Shown: positions 1 to 35,303 of the stretch, piece by piece
Numbering within the stretch: position 1 is the stretch's first letter
Layout: every line of letters begins with the position of its first letter
Assembly (NCBI RefSeq): GCF_024323335.1
Contig: NC_066579.1
Location: forward strand, 240,907,652-240,971,651
DNA: 64,000 nucleotides
Direction of reading: 5' to 3'
From: Lathyrus oleraceus
Taxonomy: Eukaryota; Streptophyta; Magnoliopsida; Fabales; Fabaceae
Notes under the pieces: model-generated
Database searches by the model: none
Seen by the model: the letters and a program-made list of their open reading frames with translations, nothing else
What the model was told of the DNA's origin: nothing
Program-made: the position numbers and the translations under genes

Positions 1-2340
1 TCTTCTTCAAAGAAACCCTTCTCTGGGGCACCTCGCCGTAGAGAAGGAGAGACCAATGCTGTACAGCACAGAGGGGGTGTGTACAGAGCTAATACAAACA
101 GGGACCAGTATCGTCCAATCGCCGCAGTGACCATTCCTGCGCCTCAACCGCGTCCACAACAACCAAGAGTTCAGCAACAACAACCGCAACGACCTCAACA
201 ACAGCAACAACAACAACAACGTCCTTTCCAGCCTCAGCAGAGACAGAGGTTGAATCCTGATAGAAGATTTGATCCTTTGCCCATGTCATACGCCGAGCTA
301 CTACCCGAGCTACTCCGGTTAGGGTTTGTAGAGTTGCGTACGATGGCAACTCCTACTGTGCTGCCACCCGGCTATGATGCCAATGTAAGATGTGACTTTC
401 ACTCTGGGGCACCAGGCCACCATACTGAAAGATGCTGGGCGTTTCAGCACAAGGTCCAGGACTTGATTGATTCCAAGACAATCAACTTCTCTCCGGTTCC
501 GAATGTGGTAAACAATCCTATGCCACAGCATGGAGGGCATAGGGTTAATAACATTGAAGATGGGGAAGCTGAAGACCTGATCGTAGATGTTGAAGATGTT
601 CAGACATCTTTGTTGGTCGTCAAGGGCCGCTTGTTGAAAGGGGGTGTTGACCCAGGTTGTTCAGAAGATTGTGTGGGTTGTTCAGAATCTACCAACGGTT
701 GTGACCAGCTGAGGGCTGGAATTCAGAGTCTGATGGATGAGGGTTGTGTGCAGTTCAGCCGTGCTACCAGAGATAATGGGGCGGTGTCTACTGTCACCAT
801 TTTTTATAAACCGGCTGAAGGAAGAGGGCGTGGGGCTGTCAGTACACCCACCACCAGCAATACTCCGGTTACCATTCCTACCCCGGTAACCATCAGAGCA
901 CCTACTACTATCGTTGCGCCTGGCAGAAGGCAGGTTGAAAATAGTAGAGCTGTGCCTTGGAGCTATGACAATGCCTATCGCCGAGATAGGAGGGCTGGTA
1001 ACCAAACGAGGCCAGTTAATCCAGCACCGGTTACGATCAGTGCTCCTGTGAGGATCCCTGCTGTTACAAGTCCGGTAGTGGACAATGTTGGAGGACAGGG
1101 AGGCTTCACAAGGAGTGGACGACTGTTTGCTCCTCAGCCTTTGAGAGATGCTGCTGCCGAGTCATCTGCAAGGGCTAAGGGCAAACAAATAATGGTTGAC
1201 GAAGAACCGGCTCAGAAGGAGGCTGAGGGTTCTTTTCAGAAAGATGTCGAGGAGTTTATGAAGATCATTAAGAAGAGTGACTACAAGATTGTTGATCAAC
1301 TCAACCAGACTCCGTCGAAGATCTTGATACTCTCCTTGTTGATGTGTTCTGAGGCACATCGGGACGCCTTGCTGAAAATGTTGAATATGGCATATGTCCC
1401 GCAAGAGATATCAGTCAACCAGCTAGAGGGTGTTCTAGCAAATGTGAGTACCAGGCACGGTGTAGGTTTCACTGACCTGGACTTGACACCTGAGGGCCGT
1501 AATCACAACAAAGCCTTGCACATCACTATGGAGTGCAAAGGTGCAGTATTATCACATGTGCTAGTGGACACCGGGTCGTCCCTGAATGTCCTTCCGAAGC
1601 AAATATTGAAGAAAATCGACGTTGAGGGAGTCGTGCTCACTCCCAGTGACCTGATCGTGCGTGCATTCGACGGATCCAAACGATCTGTGTTTGGTGAAGT
1701 CACTTTGCCGATGAAAATAGGTCCAGAAGTCTTCGACATCGTGTTCTATGTGATGGACATTCAGCCTGCTTACAGCTGTTTGTTGGGGCGTCCTTGGATT
1801 CACGCCGCTGGAGCAGTCTCGTCAACTCTCCATCAGAAACTCAAGTATGTCTGGAATGGTCAGATCGTGACCGTCTGTGGTGAAGAGGAGATTCTGGTGA
1901 GTCATCTCTCCTCATTCAAATATGTTGAGGTGGATGGCGAGATCCATGAAACCCTATGCCAGGCATTTGAGACTGTGGCGTTGGAAGGGGTTGCTTGTGC
2001 TGAGCAGAGGAAGCCGGGTGCTTCAATTTCGTCATACAGGCAAGCAAAAGAAGTTGTGGACTCCGGTAAAGCTGAAGGCTGGGGCAAGATGGTTGACCTT
2101 CCTGTCAAAGAAGACAAATTCGGCATTGGGTACGAGCCTCTCGCAGCAGAGCAGAGCGTACAAGCAGGTCCGAGCACCTTCACCAGCGCTGGGCTGATGA
2201 ACCATGGAGACGTCTTTGCTACTGATGGTGAAGACAGTGATCATGATTTGGATGTCTGGGTCCGCCCTTGTGCACCAGGCGAGGTTATCAACAACTGGAC
2301 AGCAGAAGATGTGGTCCAAGTTACTCTACTGACAGAGTAA
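1..2340 (+). CDS. Ogre gag-protease polyprotein (5' truncated)
   Basis: The frame is open from the first base of the window to TAA at 2338-2340, so the N-terminal part of gag is missing. The start is Gln/Pro-rich (about 150-250). A zinc-knuckle-like motif lies at about 390-440 with the pattern C-x2-H-x5-H-x4-C rather than the usual CCHC; the same pattern is seen in the minus-strand Ogre gag at 43348-44976. The retropepsin-type aspartic protease follows, with active-site Asp-Thr-Gly at 1567-1575 in the context VDTGSS, and a conserved LLGRPW segment near 1780-1797. In Ogre elements gag-pro is a separate ORF from RT-integrase and an intron lies between them, which fits the stop here and the new frame downstream. 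The C-terminal ~170 codons are not recognised as a domain. No internal stop is present. Confidence 0.9.
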   Translation, partial: SSSKKPFSGAPRRREGETNAVQHRGGVYRANTNRDQYRPIAAVTIPAPQPRPQQPRVQQQQPQRPQQQQQQQQRPFQPQQRQRLNPDRRFDPLPMSYAELLPELLRLGFVELRTMATPTVLPPGYDANVRCDFHSGAPGHHTERCWAFQHKVQDLIDSKTINFSPVPNVVNNPMPQHGGHRVNNIEDGEAEDLIVDVEDVQTSLLVVKGRLLKGGVDPGCSEDCVGCSESTNGCDQLRAGIQSLMDEGCVQFSRATRDNGAVSTVTIFYKPAEGRGRGAVSTPTTSNTPVTIPTPVTIRAPTTIVAPGRRQVENSRAVPWSYDNAYRRDRRAGNQTRPVNPAPVTISAPVRIPAVTSPVVDNVGGQGGFTRSGRLFAPQPLRDAAAESSARAKGKQIMVDEEPAQKEAEGSFQKDVEEFMKIIKKSDYKIVDQLNQTPSKILILSLLMCSEAHRDALLKMLNMAYVPQEISVNQLEGVLANVSTRHGVGFTDLDLTPEGRNHNKALHITMECKGAVLSHVLVDTGSSLNVLPKQILKKIDVEGVVLTPSDLIVRAFDGSKRSVFGEVTLPMKIGPEVFDIVFYVMDIQPAYSCLLGRPWIHAAGAVSSTLHQKLKYVWNGQIVTVCGEEEILVSHLSSFKYVEVDGEIHETLCQAFETVALEGVACAEQRKPGASISSYRQAKEVVDSGKAEGWGKMVDLPVKEDKFGIGYEPLAAEQSVQAGPSTFTSAGLMNHGDVFATDGEDSDHDLDVWVRPCAPGEVINNWTAEDVVQVTLLTE

Positions 2341-2586
2341 TTTTCTTTTGTTTTTTCATTTTTGCATGAAAACCCTACGTTCCGCCCAGGGCGTAGTGGT
2401 TCATTGTAGGGCCACATCATGTTCGCAATGTTTATAAATAAAGGACGTTTTTTTCAATCAAATTTTGAGATCTTTGTCTTTCTATTTTCTGTTTTTCCAC
2501 TTTTTCAAAACAATAAAATGGCAATGTTTTTTGTTTTTGTGACTTTATTGAAATCTTTTTCTAAAAACAAAACATTAAACATGCAG
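2341..2586 (+). other. Putative Ogre intron between protease and RT ORFs
   Basis: This T-rich, AT-rich interval has stops in all plus frames and separates the gag-pro frame from the RT frame. Ogre elements are known to carry an intron at this position, removed in part of the transcripts to make a gag-pol fusion. A good 3' splice site (AACATGCAG) ends at 2586, preceded by a branch-like TTAAAC. The 5' splice site is not clear; a GT inside the last codons of the protease ORF or shortly after its stop could be used, so the left edge is only approximate. A homologous interval is kept in the minus-strand Ogre at about 42940-43150. Confidence 0.6.
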
Positions 2587-5500
2587 AAATGATCTTTTGG
2601 CATCCACTGTGAACGACTCTGTTATGGCTCAGTATGATTTCAACAATCCCATCTACCAAGCTGAAGAGGAGAGTGAGGAAGACAGTGAACTCCCTGCAGA
2701 ATTGGTCAGACTACTGAAGCAAGAGGAAAGGGTCATCCAACCTCACCAGGAAGAGTTGGAGATTGTTAATCTGGGTACTGAGGACGCCAGAAGAGAGATC
2801 AAGATTGGGGCTGCTTTAGAAGACTCTGTCAAGAGGAGGCTAATCGAGATGCTGAAAGAATATGTGGAAATATTCGCCTGGTCATACCAAGATATGCCTG
2901 GGCTGGATACAGACATTGTGGTGCATCGGTTACCTCTCAGAGAAGAATGTCCGTCAGTCAAGCAGAAGCTTCGCAGAACAAGTCCCGATATGGCTGTCAA
3001 GATCAAAGAAGAGGTTCAGAAGCAGTGGGACGCAGGTTTCTTAGCTGTCACAAGTTACCCGCCGTGGGTTGCCAACATTGTTCCCGTGCCGAAGAAGGAT
3101 GGCAAAGTCAGAATGTGTGTCGATTACCGAGATTTGAACAGGGCGAGTCCGAAAGACGATTTCCCATTACCTCACATTGATGTATTGGTGGATAATACGG
3201 CTCAATCCTCGGTGTTCTCTTTCATGGACGGTTTCTCAGGCTACAATCAGATCAAGATGGCGCCAGAGGACATGGAAAAGACGACATTCATTACACCTTG
3301 GGGCACGTTCTGCTACAAGGTAATGCCATTTGGGTTAAAGAATGCCGGTGCTACCTATCAGAGGGCAATGACGACTCTCTTTCATGACATGATGCACAAC
3401 GAAATCGAAGTGTACGTGGATGATATGATTGCGAAGTCGCAGACGGAAGAGGAGCACCTGGTAAATCTGCAGAAGTTGTTTGACAGACTGGTCAAGTTCA
3501 AACTGAGGCTGAATCCGAACAAGTGCACGTTTGGAGTGAGATCCGGGAAGCTCTTAGGCTTCATTGTCAGTGAGAAAGGGATTGAGGTAGATCCAGCTAA
3601 AGTCAAAGCTATTCAAGAGATGCCTGAACCGAAGACGGAAAAGCAAGTCCGTGGGTTTTTAGGGAGGTTGAACTACATTGCAAGGTTCATATCTCATCTA
3701 ACTGCCACATGTGAACCAATTTTCAAACTACTCAGAAAAAATCAGGCGATCAAATGGAATGATGACTGTCAGGAAGCTTTTGACAAAATCAAAGAATACT
3801 TGCAAAACCCTCGAAATCCTGATACCTCCAGTTCCTGGGAGACCACTGATCATGTACCTTTCAGTCACCGAGACTTCGATGGGGTGTGTATTGGGTCAGC
3901 ATGACGAGTCTGGTCGAAAAGAGCATGCCATATACTACCTGAGCAAAAAGTTTACCGACTGTGAAACAAGATATTCACTGCTCGAGAAAACTTGCTGTGC
4001 TTTGGCCTGGGCTGCTCGCCGACTAAGGCAGTATATGTTGAACCATACTACTTTGTTGATTTCTAGGATGGATCCGGTAAAATACATCTTTGAGAAGCCA
4101 GCTCTCACCGGACGTGTTGCCCGTTGGCAGATGATCTTAACCGAGTATGACATTCAGTACACGTCTCAGAAAGCCATCAAAGGTAGTATTCTGTCAGACT
4201 ATCTTGCCGAACAACCAATCGACGACTATCAGCCTATGATGTTTGAATTCCCTGATGAAGACATCATGTACCTGAAGACAAAAGACTGTGAAGAGCCGCT
4301 TGTCGAGGAAGGACCGGATCCTGATGACAAGTGGACACTGATGTTCGATGGGGCTGTGAATATGAACGGTAACGGTGTTGGGGCAGTGTTGATCAATCCC
4401 AAAGGTGCTCATATACCTTTCTCTGCCAGATTGACTTTCGACGTCACCAACAATGAAGCTGAGTATGAGGCTTGTATCATGGGGATAGAAGAAGCCATTG
4501 ATCTGAGGATCAAAACACTTGATATATTTGGAGATTCTGCTCTAGTGATCAATCAGGTCAATGGAGATTGGAATACGAATCAGCCACATTTGATTCCGTA
4601 CAGAGATTACACCAGAAGAATACTGACGTTCTTCAAGAAGGTGAAGTTGTGTCATGTCCCGCGAGACGAGAATCAGATGGCTGATGCCTTGGCTACTTTA
4701 TCCTCCATGATAAAGGTTCATTGGTGGAATCAGGTGCCACATGTTGCTGTGAATCGACTCGAGAGGCCTGCATATGTGTTTGCAGCCGAGTCTGTTAATG
4801 CTATTGATGATAAGCCGTGGTATTATGACATCAAGAACTTCCTCAAGACTCAAGAGTATCCTGAGGGTGCATCGAAGAATGATAAGAAGACCCTGAGAAG
4901 GCTAGCTGGAAGCTTCTACCTGAATCAGGATGATGTGCTATACAAGAGAAACTTTGACATGGTCTTGCTCAGATGCGTGGATAGACACGAAGCAGACATG
5001 TTGATGCAAGAAGTGCACGAGGGTTCGTTTGGTACCCACGCTGGTGGTCATGCAATGACGAAGAAATTGCTGAGAGCCGGATATTACTGGATGACTATGG
5101 AATCCGATTGCTTCAAATATGCTCGGAAATGCCATAAATGTCAAATCTATGCTGATAAGGTGCATGTACCACCAAGCCCATTGAATGTCATGAACTCGCC
5201 TTGGCCGTTCGCCATGTGGGGCATTGACATGATCGGGAGGATAGAGCCAACTGCTTCTAATGGACATCGTTTCATCCTGGTTGCGATCGATTACTTCACC
5301 AAGTGGGTGGAAGCAGCTTCTTATGCCAACGTCACCAAACAAGTGGTTGCCCGGTTCATCAAGAAAGAAATCATCTGTCGTTATGGAGTTCCCGAGAGAA
5401 TCATCACTGACAATGGTTCGAATCTCAATAACAAAATGATGAAAGACTTATGCAGAGATTTCAAGATTGAACATCACAATTCTTCTCCTTACAGACCGAA

Positions 5501-6068
5501 GATGAATGGTGCTGTAGAGGCAGCTAACAAGAATATCAAGAAGATTGTGCAGAAGATGGTCGTTACGTACAAGGATTGGCACGAGATGTTGCCTTTCGCT
5601 TTGCATGGGTACCGTACCTCAGTACGTACGTCGACCGGGGCAACCCCCTACTCCCTTGTGTATGGTATGGAAGCAGTCCTACCAGTTGAGGTGGAGATCC
5701 CTTCTCTGAGGGTATTATTGGATGTCAAGCTGGACGAAGCCGAATGGATTCGTACAAGGTTTAACGAGTTAAGCCTGATTGAAGAAAGACGTTTAGCAGC
5801 TGTTTGCCATGGGCAGTTATATCAGAGGAGGATGAAGCGAGCCTTTGATCAGAAAGTGCGTCCTCGGACATTTCAAACTGGCGATCTAGTTTTGAAGAGG
5901 ATCCTTCCTCCCGGTACAGATAACAGGGGCAAGTGGACTCCTAATTACGAAGGTCCATATGTTGTGAAGAAGGTCTTCTCCGGTGGAGCCTTGATGCTTA
6001 CAACAATGGATGGTGAAGATTTTCCTTCCCCTGTCAACTCAGATGTAGTCAAAAAATACTTCGCATAA
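2587..6068 (+). pseudogene. Ogre RT / RNase H / second RNase H / integrase ORF with one frameshift
   Basis: The frame opens just after the putative splice acceptor and runs to about 3810, where it shifts to another frame that continues to TAA at 6066-6068. Reverse transcriptase is at about 3000-3560, with the catalytic box YVDDM at about 3412-3426. A gypsy-type RNase H follows at 3830-4150; its first catalytic Asp is not obvious (TETSMG where D is usual). A second, plant/archaeal-type RNase H lies at 4330-4690, with FDGA, NNEAEYEA and GDSALV carrying the D-E-D residues. Integrase has an HHCC zinc finger at 5010-5150, catalytic Asp residues in GIDMIG and ITDNGS, and Glu in GAVEAANK (DD35E). 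A GPY-type C-terminus is at about 5955. The frameshift at the RT/RNase H junction (3806-3818) would abolish the full polyprotein unless it is a sequencing error. Confidence 0.9.
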
Positions 6069-6780
6069 TTTGACCCGCTGGACAAAAAGAACAAAATAGT
6101 CCAGGCAAAAATGGGCATCCCGGCGAACCAAAAAAAACAGAAAGAAAGGTTCGGGCAAAAATTAGGGATAAAAGGAAAAAATCGTACACCCGGTAAGTCG
6201 AAAACCCGCAAGGGCGGCTTAGGCAAAAATGGGTATCCCGGTGGATTGAAAACCCGAAAGGGCGATCCAGCCAAAAGAGGGATTAAAGCGAAGACTACAG
6301 TCTGAGTCATATGTACTTCGTCATGCTTCGTCAGCTGCCATCTCGACAGATGTGATCGGTCCAGTCAGTCTTCTCAGAAAGCAAGGAATTGGGAGGAAAC
6401 TGATGATCTATGAGTTATAACCGAGTTGGGAAACAGTGGATGCCGTGTTCACATTGCCATTAGGATAGTTTATTTTCCTTTTGTGCGCAATTACCTCTTT
6501 CTAGGAATTGCTTCCCAATGTACTTGCCTCTTCAGGCACACTTTCAATCAATAAAAGTCGTTATTCAGATAAGTTGCTCTCCTGTTTTTACTTTTACTGT
6601 TTTGTTTGCAAAAAACGTCCGAATTTTTGATAAACATTGCATACAAAAACATGAAGGCTACACAATGACGTGCAGGAAGATTAAAACATTTGAAAATCAT
6701 TTTGAATGTTGAGGACACTTGACCGTATCTTGTCCATGTACTCCCTGGGGCATTTGTTGTTCCGATTTGCAGGTCGTCAC
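6069..6780 (+). repeat. Ogre 3' UTR, proximal part with short degenerate repeats
   Basis: There is no coding potential. From about 6090 to 6300 a unit of roughly 50-60 bases recurs, containing GGCAAAAATGGG, CATCCCGG and GAAAACCCG...AAGGGCG. The same words, in the same order relative to the integrase stop, occur on the minus strand at 42100-42240 in the second Ogre, so this block is ancestral to both. The remainder to 6780 is unstructured AT-rich sequence. Confidence 0.7.
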
Positions 6781-7640
6781 CTGTGAATATTTTCCCCAGT
6801 AAGGTCGTCACCTGTGAGCATTCCCCAGCAATGCTTTCCCCAGACAGAATCATTCTCCCAACTTTGGATTTGTTTAAGCCTTCCCCAGCGAAGCAATTAT
6901 TTCTCCAGCAGAGTTCATCCCACCAGTGGATTGGACGAGTTTCCATAGCAGGTCGATACCTACATCCCCAGCTGAGTTATTTCTACTTGTGAACATTGTG
7001 GGTCGTCCCCGGCAGAGTAATAGATATTCCCCGAAGCAGAGTTCATCATATCTGAGGATTGTCTGAGCCTTATCCCCAGAGAGTTTCTTGGTTTATCTTC
7101 CCCAGCGGAATAGCGATTTCCTCAGCAGAACGATTATTTCCCCAAGCGGAGTTTTTTGTGGATTGATTGGGCTATCTCCAGCAGTTTACTGCTATTTCTC
7201 CCTAGCAGAGTTGATTCATTTCTCCCCAACAGAGTTGCTTTCTTCCTCCCCAGCGAGTTGCCTCGTATCCCCCTAGTGGATTTGATTTGTTGGCTCCCCA
7301 GCAGCAGTTTGTTGCTTCCCCAGTGGATTTATCTTGAAGATTCCTCGGCACAATCGTCCTGTGTATTTCTCCCCGCAGAGTTCTTATCATATTGCATTGC
7401 ATATAGTAATCATTGCATCCTCAAACTGCGTAGCATTTCCATTCCATATGGAGCATTACGCCATAGAAAAATTCAAACATATGCATTCATGTGTTCGAAA
7501 CCACATCAGACCGTATTCCCCGGCAGAGGCAGATCATCTTTATTCAACGTCAGCACCAAGTCTGCTACAGTTGCTTCAACAGCATTCAGAATTGATATCC
7601 CCACAGAGGTTTATTTCCTCACCCGATGGTGACAGATGGT
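6780..7640 (+). repeat. Ogre 3' UTR, CCCCAGC(A/G)GAG-type degenerate repeat block
   Basis: About twenty scattered variants of TTCCCCAGCAGAG / TCCCCAGCGGAG recur every 25-60 bases. The word resembles the 3' end of tRNA-Arg and therefore the complement of the Ogre primer site (see 62948-62965), although a link may be accidental. A comparable block, in the same place relative to integrase, is on the minus strand at about 40900-41700. No ORF is supported here; open frames in it are by-products of the repeat. Confidence 0.65.
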
Positions 7641-7756
7641 TTGTTTCTCCCCAGTGAGATCCTCCAGCAAGTGATCAGTCTTGCCTTAGCATATCTCAGT
7701 TTTGATCTTGTGATACCAGTAAGTGTCATGTTAGCACCCGCGTGTGTTTCAGTTTT

Positions 7757-8790
7757 TGGTGTCGGTAAACACCATTGTTTCGGTGTCGGTAAACATCGAG
7801 TCTCACCCAGTCATCGGTAAATGTCTGGTCTTTTTTTTGGTGTCGGTAAACGCCATCGTTTCGGTGTCGGTAAACATCGAGTCTTCCTTTCAGTCATCGG
7901 TAAATGTCTGATAATCCCCAACAAAAATCTCCAGTAGAGTCATCTGTAAATGTCCTATTTGGTTTCCAGTTGCATTTTCTTGTCTGTCTCTCACCATAAA
8001 TGTCCCATCCCAGTCATCGGTAAATGTCTGGTCTTTCTTTTTGGTGTCGGTAAACGCCATTGTTTCGGTGTCGGTAAACATCGAGTCTCACCCCAGTCAT
8101 CGGTAAATGTCTGGTCATTCTTTTTGATGTCGGTAAACATCATCTTTCGATGTCGGTAAACATCGAGTCTCACCCAGTCATCGGTAAATGTCTGGTTATT
8201 CTTTGTTCTCTCGTTAATAAAATCAGAATCCCCCAGAAGTCGTCGGTAAACGTCTTGTCTGGTATCACCTCAAAGATTTTGTTCCTCCCCAAGCGGAGAT
8301 GCCATCGGTAAATGGCTCAGTTTTCTTCGATATCGGTAAATATCGAGTTCCCAGTTGCAGCAGCCATCGGTAAATGGCCTTGATATCGGTAAATATCAAG
8401 TTTGCTTTGAAGCCACCATCGGTAAATGGTTTTGCTTCCTTTTCAACATCAAATTATTTTCCCAGCAGCCATCGGTAAATGGTCTGGCTGAAGTGGATGT
8501 CAAGGTCCCAGTTCTAACCATCGGTAAATGGTTTTGTTTTTCAGAAGTTCGTTTTTCCCAGCAGCCATCGGTAAATGGTCTGGCTGAAGTTGATATCGGT
8601 AAATATCAAAGTTTTAACCATCGGTAAATGGTTTTGTTTTTCAGAAATTTGTTTTCCCCAGCCGCCATCGGTAAATGGTCTCGCTGAAGTTGATATCGGT
8701 AAATATCAAGGTTCCAGTTCTCCAACCATCGGTAAATGGTTTTGCTTTTCTGAAGCTGTCATGCAGTTTATCATCGGTAAATGACGTGGT
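7757..8790 (+). repeat. Array of ~28 small inverted repeats with constant CGGTAA loop
   Basis: The hexamer CGGTAA occurs about 28 times in this interval and is nearly always flanked by complementary arms. Examples are TGGTGT/ACACCA (7757-7774), CGGTGT/ACATCG (7781-7798), TGGTGT/ACGCCA (7838-7855), CGATAT/ATATCG (near 8327), CTTGATAT/ATATCAAG (8379-8400), GCCAT/ATGGC (near 8302) and AACCAT/ATGGTT (near 8515). The arms differ in sequence yet remain complementary, and mismatches are mostly G-T in this strand. A second class, CCAG-T-CAT / ATG-T-CTGG (7807-7828, repeated near 8020, 8092 and 8172), has one T-T mismatch in the same position; AAG-T-CGT / ACG-T-CTT near 8240 keeps it too. See findings. 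Confidence 0.85.
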
Positions 8791-8906
8791 TTTCTTGTAT
8801 TGTATCCAGTCGGTGCAAATTTCTACGGTTCTTTTGTATTCAATCCCTGTTTACCCTGAAAGTCTGACAGCCCTTGCTATCATCCGTTCGGGTTCCCAGC
8901 TGATTG

Positions 8907-8918
8907 AATAGGGGCAGC
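8907..8918 (+). promoter_or_regulatory. Polypurine tract of the plus-strand Ogre
   Basis: AATAGGGGCAGC sits immediately before the TG that starts the 3' LTR. This is where second-strand DNA synthesis is primed in LTR retrotransposons. Confidence 0.75.
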
Positions 8919-10270
8919 TGTAGCACCTCAAATTTGCACCTATCATTGTGCATATCATTTCATATTAAGTCATAGCATATCATGATACATTGCATAACAT
9001 TTGCATTGTCCTCAGTTGCCTCAAGAGCCAGCAAGCAAGAATTAGGTCAAACTGATCAGGAGATCAGTCAGCCAAGCAAGCAAAGGAATTTCTCAAGGAG
9101 CATAGGCCCTGGAGTTTGTCCAACAAGTTCACATGACTTGGAGGTCTATTTGAAGTGTTCAAGTCAAGGGTTGAAGGCTCAGAGGTCAGCAGTCAATGCA
9201 CAGCCAGGCAGAAAACCCTAAACAGTCAACAATCAATCAAAGCAGTGGATGGTGGCCATTCTTGTGGAATTTGGGCACCATGGTCAATATTCAAGAGTTC
9301 ATATGTCTTGAGACATCATTTGAAGTCAAAGTCTCAAGGAACCAGGGTTTGGAATTCATCAGAAGTGCACAGTCAAGTCCAAAACCCTAGAAAGTCAAAG
9401 TTGGTCAACTGTGATTGATTCTTTGGATTTGGTGGATGGAAATGGTTTGAAGGAGCTTATTCATGTCCTAATAGGTCTCATATGTCATGGGAATCAACAT
9501 CATGGAAGAATTTGAAGCAAATCAGAAAATTTCCCAAAATAGCAACTGGGCCTGTAATTTCAACTGCCAAAAATAGAAACTTCTTGATCCTCAACTTGCA
9601 TCATGATACAAGCTTCAAATGAATTTTTTCCCAACATGAAAGTTGAAGATCTTGTCTTCCCATTTCCAAAAAGTCCAAGAACTCTCAAATCCCATGTGTG
9701 GTTGTCAAGATATGATCAAATCATTTTCACCAATTTTTGAACTTCAACAAGCCATATCTCCCAAACCATAAGGCCAAATTTGGTGGGGTTTTTTCCTACA
9801 AACCACATTTTTCATCCTCTTTCCAAAAATATAAATTTCATGACTTAAAACCTTGCCAATCAAAATGGCATTTTTGGACCTTTTTCATTTAAATTCAAAG
9901 TTTGACCAAACTTTGACTTTTTGCTTCTTTGACTTTTTCTTGACTTGGCCAATTGGGAAATGTTCTAAATCACATTTGTGACTTGTCTCAAGCCTTAAAC
10001 CATGTTCATTTCACTATCTTACTACCATTTTGGACAAAAATTCAAAGTTGGCAAAATGTTGCAAATGGAAGTACATAAGCAAAACACATACAGCATTTTT
10101 CTGTACAACCACAAGCAGCAATTGGAATGTCCTTCTGCAGCCTTTCCAGCCCATAATCGTGCAGACAAACATACCCTCCATCCCACTTACATGTCAATTA
10201 GCAAATTTGCAAAATGCATCATTAAGCATAAACCAGCTTACCAATTGATTAAAGGACCTTAAACAGGTGG

Positions 10271-22405: not shown

Positions 22406-22410
22406 CATGT
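22406..22410. repeat. Target-site duplication CATGT, left copy
   Basis: CATGT directly precedes the SIRE-like 5' LTR and is repeated at 30296-30300 directly after the 3' LTR. Five bases is the usual size for Ty1/copia. Confidence 0.9.
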
Positions 22411-23821
22411 TGTAGATGTTTGATTGGCTGCATTTTGTGTTAAAACATCTAACTGTACTATGATGTCTTAACTGATGTCATGACATACTTGAGTAGTATG
22501 CTGCAGGTTTAGCTAATACAGGATTTACTGAATGTCAAACTAGATGTTATGATATTCATCCCTGACAGCAGATACTGAGGTTTAGAATAGTTGGTTGTCT
22601 GTTATAACTTAGTATTTATCTCAGTCTGTTTATTCAGAAGAATAACAGACCTGACATAAGGCCTACTGTCTGAATGTCAAACTGGATGTTATGACATTCA
22701 TCAGTGACAACATATACTGAATAATAGGTAGGTTGGTTTTTCTACTTCAGTTCAGTATGTATCTCAGTTTGTTTATCAAGGGAATAACATACCTAGCATA
22801 AGACCATTGTGTAAATGTCAAACTGGATGTTTTGACATTTATTACTGTAAGCTGATATTGAAGTATAGACTAGTTGGTCTGCTACAGTACAACATTTAGC
22901 ACAGTCTGTTTTCAGGAAAATAACAGACTTAGCATATGGTATATGTTCTGGTCGTCAAACTGAATGTTGTGACATTCATCCCTGACAGCATATGCTAAAG
23001 TGTAGGATGGTTAGTTTTTCTGTTTCAGCATTTTTCTCAGGCTATTCTTCAGGAGTCCAACAACTGAGCTAAAATCCAGGAAACTAACAACTAAGCTACA
23101 ACTAATGAACCTAACAAATAGCCTATTTGTTAGCACCCTAATATGTGGAAATTAGGTTAACTTGCTTAACCTTAATTTTAGGAAATACAAGTACAAGGCC
23201 CAAGTGCTGCAATATAAAAGGATGGCAATCCTTCTTTCAGAACTCGTGGGTTTTAGGCGTGAAGATTTTATTGGTCCATCATACTTCACTGCTGTATTTT
23301 TATGTGTGTCTTGTATTAGGTGTATCTTGTGAGCCAAGCAATTATCACCTAGATGATTGCATTGGACTAGGGTGTTCATTGAGTTGTAAGTGTTGTGTCA
23401 CTCTAAGCTTTTAAGTGTGAGTGCTGTGTATCTTGATTAAAGCTGTTAAGCACAATCGAGAGTTGTTTGAAGTGTGACTTCACCATTAACTTTAATCTAA
23501 TTAAATGTTGTAATCACTGAGGTGATTGAGGGGGAGTGAGTAGGAACTCTGATCTTAGTGTAAGATTGAAATTGCATTGGGTAGGTATTAAGTGATAGAA
23601 TTAAACAGTTGGTTTAAGGTCTGAATTAATACTACTAATAGTGGATTTCCTCCCTGGCTTGGTAGCCCCCAGACGTAGGTGTGTGTGACACCGAACTGGG
23701 TAAACAATTCCTTGTGTTATTTACTGCACTTACTTTTTAAGTTCTGCATAATTCTTGTCTGCGCAGAATTGGATGTCATAACATCCCGTGTGACATCGAA
23801 AGTCTGTTAACTAGAATTTCA
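22411..23821 (+). repeat. 5' LTR of the SIRE-like element
   Basis: It begins TGTAGATGTTTGATTGG and ends CTAGAATTTCA. The U3 part (22520-23000) consists of about four diverged units of ~142 bp, each with the inverted pair TGTCA...TGACA spaced by 12 bases. TATAAAA at 23213-23219 marks the probable promoter. The last 60 bases hold another GATGTCA/TGACATC pair with a 12-base gap. Confidence 0.93.
23213..23219 (+). promoter_or_regulatory. TATA box in the SIRE-like 5' LTR
   Basis: TATAAAA in the context GCAATATAAAAGGATGG, downstream of the U3 repeat array; the copy in the 3' LTR is at 29688-29694. Transcription would start about 30 bases further. Confidence 0.7.
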
Positions 23822-23822
23822 A

Positions 23823-23836
23823 TTGGCATCAGAGCA
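23823..23836 (+). promoter_or_regulatory. Primer binding site (tRNA-Met) of the SIRE-like element
   Basis: TTGGCATCAGAGCA starts right after the LTR; it matches TGGTATCAGAGC, the usual complement of initiator tRNA-Met, with one change. Confidence 0.8.
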
Positions 23837-23891
23837 GGCACCATGCCTGTTAATTTCTGGGTGAGATCTAGGGAAGTTACTTTCTAGTACC

Positions 23892-26423
23892 ATGGACAAG
23901 GATGTAGGATACTCAAATAGACCACCCATGCTGGATGGTTCTAACTATGATGACTGGAAGCCTCGTATGATAACCTTCTTAAGGTCTCTAGATAGAAAAG
24001 TCTGGAGAGCTGTCAACAAAGGATGAGAACATCCAACGAAGACAGGTAAAGATGGAGTCAGTATGCAAATTCCTGAAGAAGAGTGGGACAAGGAGCAAGA
24101 GGCATTAGCCCTTGGAAATTCTAAGGCCTTAAATGCATTGTTCAATGGAATAAGTAAGAACATCTTCAGACTGGTGCATCACTGTGAGTTGGCTAAGGAA
24201 GTTTGGGATACCCTCAAGATAACTCATGAAGGTACCTCCAAGGTGAGGATGTCTAAACTTCAGATGCTGACCACCAAGTTTGAAAATCTGAGGATGAAAG
24301 AGGATGAGACTATTCATGACTTCCACATGAATATTCTTGAAATTGCCAACACTTCTGGTGGCTTAGGTGAGAAAATGGCTGAAGAGAAACTTGTAAGAAA
24401 GATTCTCAGATCATTTCCAAAGAGATTTGCCATGAAGGTCACAGCCATAGAAGAGGCTCAAGATATCAGCAATATGAAGGTTGATGAGCTTATTGGGTCA
24501 CTCCAAACCTTTGAAATGGGATTATGTGAGGATGCTGAAAAGAAGAACAAAAGCATAGCCTTTGTATCAAATACTGAAGAGGATTAAGAAGAAGGAAATG
24601 GAGGAAATGAAATCATTTCAGAAGCCATAGCCATGCTTGGGAGACAGTTCAACAAGTTCATAAAGAAGGTTGATCAACAGGGCAGACCTAATGTCAAGAA
24701 CTTCTCATCTGACATCAGTAGAAGACCAAAACATGAAGAAAAGGTCACCCAAGGCAAGGGAATCCAATGCCATGGATGTGAAGGTTTTGGTCACATTAGA
24801 GCTGAATGCCCTACCTTCCTTAAGATGCAAAAGAAGGGGCTATTTATCACCTGGTCTGAAGGAGATTCTGAGAGTGAATCTGAAGGAGAATCTGATAAAC
24901 ATGTCACTACACTAACTAGTGTTTGTGCCTCCGATGATGACTCAAGTGGAGATGAACTTACCTTTGATGAACTTGCTGCTTCATATAAAGAGCTATGTGT
25001 CAAAAGTGCAGAAGTATACATCCAAGGAGAAAAGCAGAAGAAACTCATCAAGGAACTAGAAGCTGAAAAACAGAAGCATCTGACAGTCATAGATGGCCTG
25101 AATGGTGAGATAGCATTGCTGACATCTAAGCTAGAACAAATGACAAAATCCATCAGAATGCTGAATAAAGGAACTGGCACCTTGGAAGAGATTCTAAAGG
25201 TGGGACAGAAGTCAGGAACCATGTCTGGTTTAGGCTTTGTTAAGAAATCCTCAGCTGAACTCAAACGCTCAAAGGCTGAAGTTCAGAAACTCAAGCAGAA
25301 GTCACAACCGATGTCTCAACATCAGGGAACCAGGATGAGTAACCATCAGAAGAAGAAATTTCAGAGATGGAGATGTCACTATTGTGGTAGATTTGGTCAC
25401 ATAAAACCCTTCTGCTACAGGTTGCATGGTTATCCTAACCAGACCCCTCAAGTCAGACCTAAGCAGAAGGCATCTTAGCATAATGCCCCCATTGAGAAAC
25501 AACAATGGGTTGTTAAACTAGCTCACACATCCCTTAGGGCATCTACCAGACAAGACTGGTATTTTGATAGTGGCTGCTCAAGACATATGACTGGGATGAG
25601 CAACTTATTGGTGGATATACAACCTCATGCTACCAGGTATGTGACATTTGGTGATGGAGCTAAAGGAGAAATCAAGGGTGTTGGTAAGCTGGACTATCCT
25701 GGAGTTCCAAAACTGAGTAATGTGCTGTTAGTAAAAGGACTAACTGCTAATCTCATCAGCATAAGCCATCTATGTGATCAAGGCTTCAATGTACAATTCA
25801 CTAAGGAAGGATGTGTGGTGATGAATGGTTGCAATCAGGAAGTTATGAGAGGAGCCAGATCCAAATATAACTGTTATCTATGGGAATCTAGAGTCTCACA
25901 CTACTCCTCAAAGTGCCCCTTAGCCAAGGAAGAGCAGGAAGTGAAGCTGTGGCATGGAAGACTTGGACAACTTCATTTAAGAGGAATGAAGAAGATCATA
26001 TCCAAGGAAGCAATTAAAGGAATCCCAAATCTTCTTATGGATGAAAGAAAAGGCTGTGGAAAATGTCAGGTGGGCAAGCTAAACAAGATACCACATTCCA
26101 AGATGGGACATTCAAAATCTGCCAAACTTATGGAACTGGTGCCAATGCACTTAATGGTACCTATGCAGATTGAAAGCCATGAGTCATCCTCACCTATTGG
26201 ACCCCATCAAAATGGTGTAGTAGCAAGGGAGAAACAGAAGTGTGTATCATTGTCCACTGCAGAAGCTAAGTACCTAGCTTCTGGTAGCAAGTGTTCACCA
26301 CTGGTATGGATGAATCAGATGCAGACTGAGTACAATGTCACTCAGAATGTCATGACATTGGATGCTACTCAGTTTGACAAAGTTGGGGGCAAAGAGGGAA
26401 TGTGTCCTTCTGAGAAATTATAG
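23892..26423 (+). pseudogene. SIRE-like gag-protease-integrase remnant, single frame with internal stops
   Basis: The ATG at 23892 opens a frame that stays in register to TAG at 26421-26423, broken by TGA 24024 (probably a former Trp), TAA 24585 and TAG 25476. A UBN2/DUF4219-like copia gag domain fills 23900-24550. One CCHC knuckle (CHGCEGFGHIRAEC) is at about 24770 and a second (CHYCGRFGHIKPFC) at about 25375, with an acidic and coiled-coil region between. Protease is at about 25560 (FDSGCSRHMTGM). The GAG-pre-integrase part has LWHGRLGQLHLRGMKK, and the integrase zinc-finger cysteines are in CGKCQVGK. After about 26130 the sequence jumps to a short PHQNGV integrase piece and then to an RNase H tail (SLSTAEAKYLASG). 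The integrase core and nearly all of RT are gone, so the copy cannot reverse-transcribe itself. Confidence 0.9.
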
Positions 26424-26429
26424 CAACTA
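26421..26429 (+). promoter_or_regulatory. Leaky-stop context TAG CAA CTA between pol remnant and env-like ORF
   Basis: The stop that ends pol is followed by CAA CTA, which fits the tobacco-mosaic-type readthrough rule (UAG CAR YYA). The frame after the stop is open and continues into the env-like ORF without a shift. The two upstream stops at 24585 and 25476 do not have this context. Stop suppression has been reported for soybean SIRE1 env expression. Confidence 0.65.
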
Positions 26430-28442
26430 ATGATGTTAGTTATTTACTGTTTAATAAGTCAACTTATTAAACACTTGATAATGCACTCTGATTGGTCAAC
26501 AAATAATAGACATTGCTCGTGCAACAAGCGTTTCCTCTTCCATCGCTTCAACTTTCAGTCTTGCAAGCTTTCTCTCAAAGAAACTTTTCATTTCTCCTTT
26601 GAGATATTCATCATGTCGCACCAATCCGACTCATCTTCCTACACGACCATGTCTGATTCCTCCAGCTCCGAATCATGCAACCCTAACAGGGAATATCCTG
26701 TGTCTGACTCTGCAAATACCTCACATGCAAGAAGACCTAAAGAAACGGTCTCAGGCTTCTCCTCAGCACTCGCGCTTGATGAACAAACCAGAGAAGGCTC
26801 CAGGTATGTTCACAATTCCATTGCAACCTTGGTAACTAGAATTTTGTCTGGTAATCATAAGGTTCTTGAGGTCTCAGTTCCCCTAAACACGATTGTACCA
26901 GAAAATGTTGCGTGTCAAGAAAATACACTTTCCTTAGCAAAGAATGTGTCTGATGAGGCTGAGCAAAATGATACTCATGAGGGGTCAAATACTGACAAAC
27001 CCTTAGAGAATGTGGGTAGTGAGGCAGTCCGTGTCACTCATGATGTCAGTGACAACCCTAAAGCTGACACAGTTAATTTGGAAGAGTTCTCTGATAATGA
27101 ACTGTTGACCTCGGTTGTCCCTAGCATAGCCAAAAGGGTTAGGACTAGGAGAGAAAAGAAGATTGTGGTGCAGAGGTCCCCCAAAAGGAAGATTGATGTG
27201 GCAACTTCTTCCAATCCAAAGGTGACAGAGAGTTCCCTCAAAAGGAAAGGGCATGGGCCTACGAAATCTTGGAGCAAAGAGGTGCCCAAGAAAATGAAGA
27301 CCAAGTTTGTTGTTGTGGAGTCTGATTCAGATGTCCCATGTGATGTCACAACATCTCTGTCAAAGAAGAAGCCAACCACTAGCAAGCTGGCAGCCAGTGT
27401 CCCCGAGGTACCTGTTGACAACGTCTCATTCCATTTTGCTTCTAGTGTGAACAGATGGAAGTATGTCTATCACAAGAGGCTGGCCTTGGAGAGGGAGCTG
27501 GCTCAGAATGTCCTGGAGTGTAAGGAGATTGTAGACCTTATTCAAGAGGCAGGGCTAATGAACACTGTGACTCAGCTCTCAAAGTGCTATGAGACTTTAG
27601 TAAAGGAGTTTATTGTCAATGTGTCTGAGGAATGTGCAGATGGAAAGTCTAGGGAATTCATAAAAGTATATGTGCGAGGCAAGTGTGTGAACTTCTCTCC
27701 CTCAGTAATCAACATGTATTTGGGAAGACCTGATGTAGCTCAACCTGAGCTTGAGGTGACTGACAACACAATCTGTCAAGTCATCACTGCTAATCAAGTC
27801 AGAAAGTGGCCTCTGAAAGGTAAGTTGGTGGCCAGCAAACTCAGTGTTAAGTATGCTATGCTACACAAAATTGGAGCTGCCAACTGGGTACCCACCAATC
27901 ACAAATCCACTGTGGCTGTGATGCTTGGAAAGTTCATCTATGCTGTTGGAACCAAAGCAAAGTTTGACTATGGAACCTACATTTTTGATCAAACCATGAA
28001 ACATGCTGGGAGCTTTAGTGTGAAGGGGCCTATAGCCTTTCCTTCCCTCATATGTGGCATTGTGTTGAATCAATTTCCAAACATATTGACAGAGAATGAT
28101 TTTGTGAAAAGAAGAGAGAGTCCTTTGACCTTCAATTATAAACTATTCTTGGGTAAGCATGTCCCTGACATTGCCATGACAACAGGAGAGACATCAAGTG
28201 TTGGCAATCAACCAGATAAAGCTGTTGTCATTGCCATACTCAGAGAGACTTGCAAAGAGCTAGAGGCAAGGAAGCTCACTTTGGAAAAGTTGATTATCAA
28301 ATTGGAGATGTCTGATGATGGTGTGCCTGGTGAAGCTGTTGAGGCTACAGAAGAAGCTGCAAGGCAAAGTGCAGAGGGTGAAGAGGATGCCAGTCCTGAT
28401 GATGGCACTGATGCTGAGGCTGACTCTGAGTCAGATGATTAA
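26424..28442 (+). CDS. Env-like ORF3 of the SIRE-like element
   Basis: The frame is open for about 670 codons directly after the pol stop and in the same register. The first ATG pair is at 26430-26435; another ATG at 26613 (MSHQSDSSS) follows a CT-rich leader-like stretch and may be an independent start giving about 609 residues. The N-terminal third is Ser/Thr-rich and low in complexity. A Lys/Arg-rich region follows (about 27120-27310), then a globular part at 27440-28080 (HKRLALERELAQNV, VNFSPSVINMYLGRP, AMLHKIGAANWVPT) that resembles the plant transposon domain found in retroelement ORFs (PF20167-like). The last part is a short coiled coil and an Asp/Glu-rich tail. I see no clear signal peptide or membrane segment, so the word env reflects position only. 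The function is unknown. Confidence 0.8.
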   Translation, partial: QLMMLVIYCLISQLIKHLIMHSDWSTNNRHCSCNKRFLFHRFNFQSCKLSLKETFHFSFEIFIMSHQSDSSSYTTMSDSSSSESCNPNREYPVSDSANTSHARRPKETVSGFSSALALDEQTREGSRYVHNSIATLVTRILSGNHKVLEVSVPLNTIVPENVACQENTLSLAKNVSDEAEQNDTHEGSNTDKPLENVGSEAVRVTHDVSDNPKADTVNLEEFSDNELLTSVVPSIAKRVRTRREKKIVVQRSPKRKIDVATSSNPKVTESSLKRKGHGPTKSWSKEVPKKMKTKFVVVESDSDVPCDVTTSLSKKKPTTSKLAASVPEVPVDNVSFHFASSVNRWKYVYHKRLALERELAQNVLECKEIVDLIQEAGLMNTVTQLSKCYETLVKEFIVNVSEECADGKSREFIKVYVRGKCVNFSPSVINMYLGRPDVAQPELEVTDNTICQVITANQVRKWPLKGKLVASKLSVKYAMLHKIGAANWVPTNHKSTVAVMLGKFIYAVGTKAKFDYGTYIFDQTMKHAGSFSVKGPIAFPSLICGIVLNQFPNILTENDFVKRRESPLTFNYKLFLGKHVPDIAMTTGETSSVGNQPDKAVVIAILRETCKELEARKLTLEKLIIKLEMSDDGVPGEAVEATEEAARQSAEGEEDASPDDGTDAEADSESDD

Positions 28443-28870
28443 ATCATTTCATGTGTTTCTGTCATTTGTGTGTAATTCTGTTTGTTTTGGTCTGTAATTT
28501 AAAGTGTTGCTTTGGCAACATTTTTGACAAAAAGGGGGAGTAACACCTGTGATGCCCCAGGACAACAGATTATTTGCTATGTGATTAAACAGATATTGAA
28601 GATCCTCTAATCCAGAGGTTGTGCTGCAGCCTAATGTTCCACTCCTATGTGTGATGAGTGTGAGTGTGTTATCTGTATGTGTGCTGCTGTTCGAAGTTTT
28701 TATTTAACTTCTATATGTGTGCTGTTGTTAGAAGTTTTTATTTAACTTTTATGTGTGTTGAGTGTGTTGCTGCTCTGAGTGTATTAGCTAGGTAAATTTC
28801 CCTGCTAGATGTGTGTTTTTCCGCTGCTATGAACTCTGTTGTGATGCCAAGTTGTTTTAGCCAAAAATTT
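28443..28870 (+). other. 3' untranslated region of the SIRE-like element
   Basis: It is non-coding and T/G-rich. A unit of about 50 bases recurs at 28675-28760 (TGTGTGCTG...GAAGTTTTTATTTAACTT). AAAAAGGGGGAG at 28530-28541 resembles an extra upstream polypurine tract. Confidence 0.6.
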
Positions 28871-28885
28871 GCCAAAGGGGGAGTT
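28871..28885 (+). promoter_or_regulatory. Polypurine tract of the SIRE-like element
   Basis: GCCAAAGGGGGAGTT immediately precedes the TG of the 3' LTR. Confidence 0.85.
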
Positions 28886-30295
28886 TGTAGATGTTTGATT
28901 GGCTGCATTTTGTGTTAAAACATCTAACTGTACTATGATGTCTTAACTGATGTCATGACATACTTGAGTAGTATGTTGCAGGTTTAGCTAATACATGATT
29001 TACTGAATGTCAAACTAGATGTTATGACATTCATCCCTGACAGCAGATACTGAGGTTTAGAATAGTTGGTTGTCTGTTATAACTCAGTATTTATCTCAGT
29101 CTGTTTATTCAGGAGAATAACATACCTGGCATAAGGCCTACTGTCTGAATGTCGAACTGGATGTTATGACATTCATCAGTGACAGCATATACTGAATAAT
29201 AGGCAGGTTGGTTTTTCCGCTTCAGTTCAGTATGTATCTCAGTCTGTTTATCAAGGGAATAATAGACATGGCATAAGGCCATTGTGTAAATGTCAAACTG
29301 GATGTTTTGACATTTATTACTGTAAGTTGATATTGAAGTATAGACTAGTTGGTCTGCTACAGTACAACATTTAGCACAGTCTGTTTTCAGGAAAATAACA
29401 GACTTAACATATGGTATATGTTCTGGTCGTCAAACTGAATGTTGTGACATTCATCCCTGACAGCATATGCTAAAGTGTAGGATGGTTAGTTTTTCTGTTT
29501 CAGCATTTTTCTCAGGCTATTCTTCAGGAGTCCAATAGCTGAGCTAAAATCCAGGAAACTAACAACTAAGCTACAATTAATGAACCTAACAAATAGCCTA
29601 TTTGTTAGCACCCTAATATGTGCAAATTAGGTTAACTTGCTTAACCTTAATTTTAGGAAATACAAGTATAAGGCCCAAGTGCTGCAATATAAAAGGATGA
29701 CAATCCTTCTTTCAGAACTCGTGGGTTTTAGGCGTGAAGATTTTATTGGTCCATCATACTTCACTGCTGTATTTTTGTGTGTGTCTTGTATTAGGTGTAT
29801 CTTGTGAGCCAAGCAATTATCACCTAGATGATTGCATTGGACTAGGGTGTTCATTGAGTTGTAAGTGTTGTGTCACTCTAAGCTTTTAAGCGTGAGTGTT
29901 TTATATCTTGATTAAAGCTGTTAAGCACAATCGAGAGTTGTTTGAAGTGTGACTTCACCATTAACTTTAATCTAATTAAAGGTTGTAATCCTGAGGTGAT
30001 TGAGGGGGAGTGAGTAGGAACTCTGATCTTAGTGTAAGATTGAAATTGCATTGGGTAGGTATTAAGTGATAGGATTAAACAGTTGGTTTAAGGTCTGAAT
30101 TAATACTACTAATAGTGGATTTCCTCCCTGGCTTGGTAGCCCCCAGGCGTAGGTGTGTGTGACACCGAACTGGGTAAACAATTCCTTGTGTTATTTACTG
30201 CACTTACTTTTTAAGTTCTGCATAATTCTTGTCTGCGCAGAATTGGATGTCATAACATCCCGTGTGACATCAAAAGTCTGTTAACTAGAATTTCA
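28886..30295 (+). repeat. 3' LTR of the SIRE-like element
   Basis: Same ends and layout as the 5' LTR. The U3 array is kept, with TATAAAA at 29688-29694. It is followed by the CATGT duplication at 30296-30300. Confidence 0.93.
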
Positions 30296-33900: not shown

Positions 33901-35303
33901 TACAAATATACGCATGGATTTGAGAATTGTGAAGGTCGAAAATCCTACCTCTTGAAGAGCAGGTTCTTGTTTTGCACGTTCCAAGGTTCCAAATGATCCA
34001 GATCAATTCCAGAATGCTTGTGGAGATGATTGATGAAGAAATTGAAGCTCCAACACGTGTGAATCCATCTTAATTTGAAAACTCCATTAACACCTTCAAG
34101 CTTCAAGCATGATTGAATCTGGCACGAATTCTTCAAAGTGCACGTTGAATCTTACTCAAAACTTCACCAAGATCAAGGATTATGCAAGGAAATGAGTGTT
34201 TGTGTGAGAAATCTTGAAGTTCTTTGTGAGAGAAAATTTTGATCAAAATTCCAAATCTAGATCTGAAAATGTGTGTTCTGATCAATACAGTTATGATTAA
34301 CCTTATATATGTCCTCTTAATCAACCTGAAATCATGATTAGGCCAAAGCTAAATGAGATTAGAAGGATATAAGGTGCATGCACAAATTTGCATTTTCACC
34401 TCATGCATGAGATGCACACATGAACAGCACACCAAGCTGGCCCAAATCCACTCAAAATTACTCCATGCACACATTGGAATTGGAATTACATGCATGTGAT
34501 CAACCAATTTTGATTTTGGCAAATTTCCTTCAAAAACTTCATGAACAAGCAAGTGATCATATGATAACATTTCATGCAATGTGATGGTTGATTTGGAAAC
34601 CTCATGTCATGAGGAACATTTTGCAAAAAGAACCACCAAATTTGGAGTCTTGGTTCAAAAGATATGGCCATTTGAAGTTTCAAGCACACTTTGCAATGAT
34701 TTGATCATAACTCCTTAACCATTAATCACAAATTCATGATCTTGGACTTTTTGGAAATGGGAGAGAAAGATCTTCAACTCTAATGTTGGACAAAATTTCA
34801 TTTGAAGCTTCTTTGATGTTGGAAAGTTGAGTTGAAGTTGGTCCAAAAACTTGCCATTTTTGGAAACTTGAAATTACAGGTCACTTTCCCTTTTTGGAAA
34901 CTTTTGATCTGGCTTCAAAATCTTCAAGGTAGATGTTTGACATGTTGAATGAACCTCTTTGGGACATGAATGAAGTGTCTCAGACCATTTCTCCATCTCT
35001 TAGCCCTCAGTTGACTTGCAGTTGAATTTTATGGGCCTCAGATGACTTGGACATGTACTGATGACTTTTGAGCCTCTAGCCTTTGGTCAAGTTGCATCAA
35101 AATGAACCTTGAGTCATGTAAGCTTTCTAGAACAACCATAGGGCCTTTGTCTCATGGAAATGCTTGGTCTCTTGCACAGATGAACTTCTCCTGATACCAG
35201 TCTTGCCTGATGATATGCAATGGACTATGCAATGTGAATGCAATGTTAATGACCTAAAATGAAATGAATGTACAAATGGGAGGTGCAAATTTGAGGTGCT
35301 ACA
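30943..35303 (-). repeat. Solo Ogre LTR (4.36 kb)
   Basis: On the minus strand it runs from TGTAGCACCTCAAATTTG (35303) to ...GCGTAATGCGACA (30943). The end block is nearly identical to the partial Ogre 5' LTR at 62968-64000 (about 95% over the stretch I compared), and the start equals that of the plus Ogre LTR at 8919. Neither primer site nor polypurine tract adjoins it, and CACAC flanks both ends, which is the signature of a solo LTR left by recombination between two LTRs of one insertion. A TATATAAGG is at 34302-34310 on the minus strand. No gene lies inside. Confidence 0.85.
31415..31640 (-). repeat. ~60-bp tandem repeat in the solo Ogre LTR
   Basis: About four units, each with (minus strand) GTAAGTCCAGCGATTGGCA followed by TCGGTTTCC. 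The same array occurs at 63445-63665 in the other Ogre LTR, with the same unit order. It is homologous to the 14350-14845 repeat. Confidence 0.8.

Follow-up and report, generated by a model that had tools for sequence, protein, structure and literature searches.

Short hairpins with a near-constant loop and covarying stems in the 3' untranslated region of an Ogre/Tat-type retrotransposon

Background

Structured RNA near a 3' end is known from the constitutive transport elements of retroviruses, which enable the nuclear exit of intron-containing RNA. In Ty3, a hairpin of the genomic RNA, DS/PAL6, has been proposed to serve particle assembly (PMC11381356). In STNV-1, several short stem-loops that share one loop motif, AxxA, have been proposed to bind the coat protein, although in-plant data weighed against their being true packaging signals (PMC6475782). 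Ogre elements, reported to account for 45% of the genome of Lathyrus sativus (PMC7004042), carry tandem repeats in their 3' untranslated regions (UTRs) that are known as a source of satellites, FabTR and PisTR-A among them (PMC7004042, PMC9659126); nine L. sativus satellites are described as also occurring in the form of short arrays in Ogre 3' UTRs (PMC7004042).

We report here on an array of hairpins of this kind of location, found in a window of 64,000 nucleotides from Lathyrus oleraceus (the window being the whole stretch of DNA that was analysed).

Results

The element that carries the array

Judged by its coding sequence, the element at the start of the window (element 1) is an Ogre/Tat-type Ty3/gypsy retrotransposon whose inside spans from the window start to about position 8918 of the plus strand. 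The features that locate the array are the following:

1-2337 (+), gag-protease frame of element 1 (frame end about 2340), open at the 5' end of the window
2579-3901 (+), reverse transcriptase frame of element 1, with a match to RVT_1
3702-6068 (+), RNase H, archaeal-type RNase H (RVT_3) and integrase of element 1, with a stop codon at the end
7755-8788 (+), array 1, composed of 28 hairpin units (loop CGGTAA, closing pair T-A, loops starting from 7763 to 8775)
8906-8932 (+), purine-rich stretch leading into the 3' LTR, which begins with TGTAGCACCTCAAA at 8919, read in the sequence

Pfam placed RT_RNaseH (45-149), RVT_3 (215-332), H2C2 (426-483) and rve (502-599) in one frame. This order of RNase H (RH), archaeal-type RNase H (aRH) and integrase (INT) is described for Ogre and Retand elements (PMC6317226); the aRH between RH and INT in element 1 is common to both and separates neither. 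Elements of this type are characterised by two open reading frames, gag-pro and RT-RH-INT, with a short intron region between them. In element 1, reverse transcriptase and RH-INT lie in two different, overlapping frames, and the gag-protease frame ends at 2340, ahead of the reverse transcriptase frame starting at 2579. In the gag-protease frame, the protease matched Asp_protease_2 at 21.5 bits, under the Pfam cut-off of 24.3, and the gag models of Pfam gave no match, so that gag is assigned to frame 1-2337 by its place. A C-x2-H-x5-H-x4-C motif, read by eye in this translation, is presumably knuckle-like with a role in nucleic-acid binding.

For the RH-INT protein, the top score among the 120 of 1030 matches listed belonged to Theobroma cacao (60% identity), the next named ones to Vicia villosa (77%) and Trifolium repens (76%), and the top named matches were mostly legumes. 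One matching protein labelled Salmonella enterica (P0030) carries an Ogre-like pol at 64% identity; it is probably plant DNA within a bacterial assembly.

Array 1 lies between the pol stop (6068) and the LTR start (8919), whose 14 bases TGTAGCACCTCAAA recur once in the window, from 35303 on the minus strand. The array ends about 130 bases before 8919, and TRF detected part of it (8457-8754) as tandem repeats between pol stop and 3' LTR. An initial annotation of the window had placed the array in an Ogre 3' UTR; the placement in an Ogre-type 3' UTR is supported.

Hairpin units and their loop

CGGTAA occurs 50 times on the two strands of the window, compared with 10.9 ± 3.5 expected; 28 of these copies are in array 1, 6 in the region of a second array and 16 elsewhere. 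Within array 1, each of 28 copies of TCGGTAAA (7762-8781) is flanked by complementary arms, and the hexamer itself (7763-8780) is on the plus strand and flanked by T and A in 28/28 cases. The initial annotation had described about 28 hairpins with this loop at 7757-8790. The 28 that we found each pair at four or five of the first five arm positions (five in 21 units, four in 7; mean 4.75), compared with means of 1.38 for the 16 CGGTAA found elsewhere and 1.86 for random centres. In the second array region, five of the six CGGTAA pair at all five positions, and the one at 38786 pairs at none and is part of another hairpin.

So that the word was not picked by eye, a scan was run over all words of 4 to 8 bases with at least 8 occurrences per 1.5 kb and at least 6 different arm pairs. 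Among the resulting 1,635 clusters, many of them overlapping (median 1.86 pairs of 5), CGGTAA ranked first, with 4.73 pairs of 5 over 11 distinct arm pairs; apart from array 1, the highest scores were those of a CGCG repeat, at 3.69, and of array 2, at 3.43.

The units of array 1 were sorted into class A (12 units), class B (6, with a fixed T-T mismatch), class C (9) and one odd unit (8775). All stems listed in the initial annotation are present. The second stem class that it had recognised by a fixed T-T is found in 6/6 class B units and recurs in the second element. Its statement that the imperfect pairs it had checked are G-T wobbles does not extend to all imperfect pairs: the 112 cells of positions 2-5 comprise 97 Watson-Crick pairs and 8 G-T, but also one A-C (unit 8775) and six T-T. 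Three decayed units without the loop were recognised as well, at 7944 (CTGTAA), about 7990 (truncated) and about 8493 (internal deletion).

Parsimony changes were counted on a tree of 29 units, namely the 28 of array 1 and the decayed unit 7944, the decayed units near 7990 and 8493 being left out. The six loop columns had one change in total, a count biased by the fact that 28 of the 29 units were selected by their loop. Per column, arm positions 1-5 had 0-4 changes and the two columns of position 6 had 6 and 7; in the outer flanks there were 5-13 changes per column on the 5' side and 3-10 on the 3' side. The loop, initially described as constant, is near-constant in array 1; in array 2, class B units carry CCGTTG or variants of it.

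Covariation of the stems

Array 1 stood above both arm-swap nulls (0 of 5000) and tree-matched nulls (0-1 of 2000). When 3' arms were swapped among the 28 units, the 97 Watson-Crick cells at positions 2-5 compared with a mean of 55.9 of 112 (0 of 5000); for the 16 distinct units, the figures were 57 and 31.8 of 64 (0 of 5000). Taken by class, A alone was significant (0 of 5000) and B was weak (172 of 5000; 878 of 5000 on its 3 distinct units). Class C alone gave no covariation signal in this test (2410 of 5000) and is therefore uninformative by itself.

Because the units are relatives, we used a tree-matched null in which the parsimony changes of each column are placed randomly on the unit tree. 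On such trees, built from short, related units and from the very columns under test, 127/140 cells of array 1 were paired at positions 2-6, compared with 81.4 ± 13.9 (0 of 2000), and 105/112 at positions 2-5, compared with 69 ± 13 (1 of 2000). The result for both arrays was 215/255 against 127 ± 27 (0 of 2000), and that for array 2 alone, at positions 2-7, was marginal (111/138 against 81 ± 16; 77 of 2000).

A pair counter, applied to the 22 distinct rows among the 28 units, gave array 1 a covariation score of 0.740. Shuffled arms scored 0.314 ± 0.040, with 0 of 500 shuffles reaching the observed value, and slid controls did not exceed 0.240; 93.2% of cells were paired compared with 70.5%. For arrays 1 and 2 together (33 of 51 units), the score was 0.578 compared with 0.254 ± 0.029, and 84.3% of cells were paired compared with 66.4% (0 of 500 in both cases). 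Pairs with two-sided change and pair types, as tallied by this counter, showed no excess over shuffles in array 1 (345 and 303 of 500) or in the two arrays (327 and 188 of 500).

The clearest matched change was seen in one unit present in four tandem copies, which read GGTGT/ACACC, GGTGT/ACGCC (twice) and GATGT/ACATC. In a neighbouring unit, GGTGT/ACATC, with a G-T pair, becomes GATGT/ACATC, with A-T, in the fourth tandem copy. The compensatory stem changes claimed at the outset are supported: tandem copies show matched changes at corresponding positions, and the nulls reach array 1 in 0 of 5000 arm-swap runs and in 0 or 1 of 2000 tree-matched runs.

A second array in a second Ogre-like element

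A related array was found on the minus strand, together with the remnants of a second Ogre-like element (element 2):

38053-38761 (-), array 2 of element 2, 23 units at 38753-38066
42242-44976 (-), remnants of element 2, gag (44976-44065) and integrase end (42535-42242), about 1.5 kb apart

The gag, upstream of array 2, matched PF03732, and the integrase end matched positions 5775-6068 of element 1 at 70% over 294 bases; 42598-42245 gave no Pfam match. Between array 2 and the LTR start (35303-38037, minus strand) we observed an antisense open reading frame with DUF7745 (36859-37320) and, beside the LTR, an apparent fragment of the gag-protease of another element, and no polypurine tract is visible there. 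From these three observations we conclude that element 2 is rearranged. The stretch that separates the gag of element 2 from its LTR (62967) contains two further elements, at 45293-54028 and 54217-62474; they are in opposite orientation, about 91-94% alike, and their terminal repeats are 99.7% and 99.4% identical. What appears to be another LTR element lies at 22410-30295; its ends are 97.5% identical, and it has a copia-type gag (PF14223) and a frame with Transposase_32 (PF20167).

The pattern used to search array 2 fixed the closing T-A, restricted position 2 to A/G against C/T and preset the 3' T. Seven units are of class A (5 CGGTAA, 2 CGATAA) and 16 of class B (11 CCGTTG, 5 variants one or two steps off). 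The inner arms of class A are as in array 1, with three G-T pairs. As in array 1, the T-T at position 4 is present in 16/16 class B units, its 3' T being preset by the pattern, and position 2 is Watson-Crick (A-T or G-C) in 51/51 units of the two arrays. Position 5 of class B in array 2 is G-C in 3, T-A in 3 and a broken T-C in 10 of 16.

At E ≤ 1, a covariance model of array 1 found all seven class A units of array 2 (5 at 24.6 bits, 2 at 17.0) and 0/16 of class B; three matches lay outside both arrays (E 0.25-0.66). Units whose loop differs between the two arrays thus retain their inner stems, and the outer stems are partly lost.

Other hairpin families

A different family of tandem hairpins, with seven units, directly follows the pol stop in both elements:

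6069-6286 (+), post-pol hairpin family of element 1, units H1-H4, arms set by hand
42057-42234 (-), post-pol hairpin family of element 2, units Ha, Hb and Hc, arms set by hand

The outer stems are ATCCC/GGGAT, ACCC/GGGT, GCTC/GAGC and GTCTC/GAGAC. The inner stem has six different 5' arms among the seven units (two units share one) and differs in each of H1-H4. A 3' internal loop lies around GGCAAAAATTA, with G(G/C)CAAAA in element 1, and closure of the inner loop as CCC-GNAA-GGG is possible in three units (H3, H4 and Hb), Ha having CCCT-CGAA-AGGG. With arms set by hand, which favours pairing, and with permutation among units as the sole control, the 42 inner-stem cells comprised 37 Watson-Crick, 4 G-T, 0 A-C and 1 other, a pairing matched by 4 of 5040 arm permutations. 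The 35 outer-stem cells comprised 31 Watson-Crick, 0 G-T, 2 A-C and 2 other (matched by 12 of 5040 permutations for Watson-Crick pairs and 18 of 5040 for all pairs). A MAFFT alignment of these units misplaced the arms of H1 and H2 and was left out of the pair counts. Rfam gave one match in 6000-9100, far under the gathering score (18.7 of 75 bits, antisense, 7373-7417), and none in 38000-42400.

Other hairpins were observed on the minus strand. Five of them, at 40491-40262 and 38799-38780, have the loop TACTAACC (in one case TACGAACC) on stems CTACC/GGTAG (four) or GTTACC/GGTAAC (one); we take the UACUAAC within the TACTAACC-type loop to be a branch-point-like word. At 39951-39154, repeats of 241 bases contain a long hairpin four times, with loop CGTTTTGACGGCTA (one CGTTTTGACGACTA) and stems that vary by G-C/A-T exchange and a G-T. 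Stems of at least 7 bp also occur in the window outside the named families.

Sense and antisense strands

The ratio of G-T to A-C pairs was 8 to 1 at positions 2-5 of array 1 and 25 to 1 at positions 1-7 of array 2, where 21 of the G-T come from one homogenised unit. In the post-pol stems it was 4:0 for the inner and 0:2 for the outer ones (4:2 overall). Counted as separate events, by our own count, there were about 10 G-T and 4-5 A-C, a difference that chance allows, and a homologous unit from outside the window (P0124, below) has an A-C. The sense-strand wobble that had been read as a mark of selection on RNA therefore stands as a trend towards G-T excess and is not established as proof of such selection.

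Mean folding z values were -0.91 (sense) and -1.86 (antisense) for array 1, and -1.68 and -2.01 for array 2. Summed hairpin energies of array 1 were -152.5 and -154.5 kcal/mol, and summed unit energies of array 2 were -113 sense and -92 antisense. At a probability above 0.5, 25/28 units of array 1 form in the sense strand, and 24/28 form in the antisense strand, in whose fold the loop gains a pair. Folding of the sense strand only was rejected for array 1, since folding of the antisense strand is equally good or better. With so little difference between the strands, action at the DNA level is possible. The structure of the array is well supported, and we infer that it acts in RNA.

The idea that the whole 3' UTR of element 1 is structured was also rejected (mean z of -0.05 at 6069-7700). 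Low folding energy is in any case unspecific, as a stretch of a nested element, at 46-47 kb, reaches -2.85 on the plus strand.

Relatives outside the window

The comparison is based on two elements of one window and six environmental protein records. These six short proteins from environmental contigs match translations of the arrays and, because they were found by similarity, are not an independent sample. In one of them (P0126, on a contig of 1,993 bases), part matches array 2 and part matches array 1 with the stretch preceding it (7908-7597); another (P0123) spans the last array 1 units into the LTR (8553-9071). Position 2 could be read from the protein letters at 25 places, of which 22 were paired, one was A-C and two were other mismatches. 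For the decayed unit 7944, supposing its closing pair to be intact, the pair at position 2 is A-T in the window, A-C in P0124 and G-C in P0126, where the neighbouring protein letters agree. On that supposition, it is a matched change between elements whose intermediate is not a wobble.

In viral contigs, CATCGGTAAATGTCTG gave 12 single matches, with at most two TCGGTAAA within 1 kb at any of the 12 loci, and GATTGAAAACCCGAAAGGG gave 8 single matches. The RH-INT frame of element 1 had no match in these contigs; with an RH-INT alignment as query, the matches (80 of 329 loci) covered some 50-125 residues of the RNase H portion at 30-51% identity. Genome contigs gave one distant contig (26%). Among the matches listed for viral and genome contigs, there was no close relative of the element 1 pol.

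Discussion

Our results suggest that the fold rather than the sequence of these hairpins is kept by selection. We tentatively propose, with somewhat less than even confidence, that array 1 consists of short hairpins maintained by selection on pairing and loop in an Ogre/Tat-type transcript, where they would serve as a landing pad for a protein. Their place of action would be the genomic RNA, in which a single presented loop, repeated many times, would offer many sites to an RNA-binding protein; repeated binding of this sort would leave the presented loop in many copies and the stems free. The likeliest partner, at a guess, would be the Gag encoded by the element itself, which would recognise or package the partly spliced RNA, and it is the first candidate because the gag-protease frame holds the C-x2-H-x5-H-x4-C motif. 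A host export or stability factor would come next, export of intron-containing RNA being considered because Ogre RNA is partly spliced. Units would be supplied and renewed by tandem duplication via strand transfer in reverse transcription, and those losing loop or stem would be removed by selection.

Similar arrays could arise by mutation if pausing or template switching of the reverse transcriptase duplicated hairpins and snap-back copying of one arm kept them complementary without selection. The tandem amplification of the units and the similar folding of both strands agree with such an origin, which we nevertheless consider fairly unlikely: loops should drift, yet one change is seen in six loop columns (28 of 29 units being loop-selected); correction of one arm by the other should erase G-T pairs, yet they persist; and the T-T should vanish, yet it is fixed in 22/22 class B units (with the 3' T preset in array 2). 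The lack of sense bias in the folding of array 1, and a palindromic form that is identical on both strands, would also be compatible with inverted arms acting as hairpins or cruciforms in the cDNA or the chromosome, for example in strand transfer, integration or binding of a host protein. Action in DNA seems to us distinctly unlikely. Of four stem sets, three have more G-T than A-C on the sense strand, which is not decisive, and arms that vary yet stay complementary speak against a sequence-specific dimer site.

Covariation might also be mimicked by differences between classes if a few units, already palindromic, had been amplified. Three classes do cover 27/28 units, and class C alone is without signal and class B weak; yet class A is significant on its own (0 of 5000), matched changes occur at homologous places, the tree-matched null of array 1 is reached by 0 or 1 of 2000, and the post-pol family behaves likewise, so that we hold this founder effect to be quite improbable. 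The loop, for its part, could be a decoy for U1 snRNA that regulates splicing or polyadenylation of partly spliced Ogre RNA. It contains GGTAA, which resembles a 5' splice site and fits the consensus at -1 to +4, yet the constant C at -2 brings no benefit to a splice site. Partial splicing is described for Ogre transcripts of pea and Medicago (PMC6317226), but such a decoy is very improbable because in array 2 the inner stem persists in class B units whose loops are CCGTTG or variants.

The reading of array 1 as a protein landing pad in RNA may extend further: the fast-changing 3' UTR repeats of Ogre/Tat elements might be, rather than junk, renewable arrays of RNA hairpins with loops of several types, to which the element's Gag or a host protein would bind. 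We regard this extension as possible, if on the unlikely side. If it were true, satellites of legume primary constrictions that grew from such arrays would descend from functional RNA motifs. An array of constant-loop hairpins is a concrete, testable candidate for the feature by which the RNA of plant LTR retrotransposons is recognised, and it might explain the repeated formation of tandem repeats in this stretch.

Among known systems, the constitutive transport elements are similar in combining a 3' structure with intron-containing RNA, Ogre RNA being partly spliced; they differ in that the two 3' UTR stretches had no Rfam match near the gathering score. The repeats of hypervariable Ogre/Tat 3' UTRs resemble array 1 in lineage, in their place between pol stop and LTR and in tandem organisation, and the published descriptions present them as sequence repeats whose monomers differ in sequence and length. 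Hairpins, palindromes and secondary structure are not mentioned in the main texts of PMC7004042 and PMC9659126, and a literature search, which covered few subscription papers, turned up no description of hairpin covariation in the 3' UTRs of Ogre elements. Tandem repeats of these UTRs were thus already known, and the covarying hairpins appear, from these searches, to be new. The Ty3 DS/PAL6 hairpin lies at the 5' end and has an apical palindrome (PMC11381356), whereas the CGGUAA of array 1 is not self-complementary, lies 3' and is present in many copies. With the signals proposed for STNV-1 (PMC6475782), array 1 (in element 1 only) shares a constant loop, variable stems and many copies; unlike those dispersed signals, it is clustered in one 3' UTR and belongs to a retrotransposon. 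By analogy, dispersed packaging signals may be the nearest working model for the array, and the in-plant result for STNV-1 makes the analogy also a caution.
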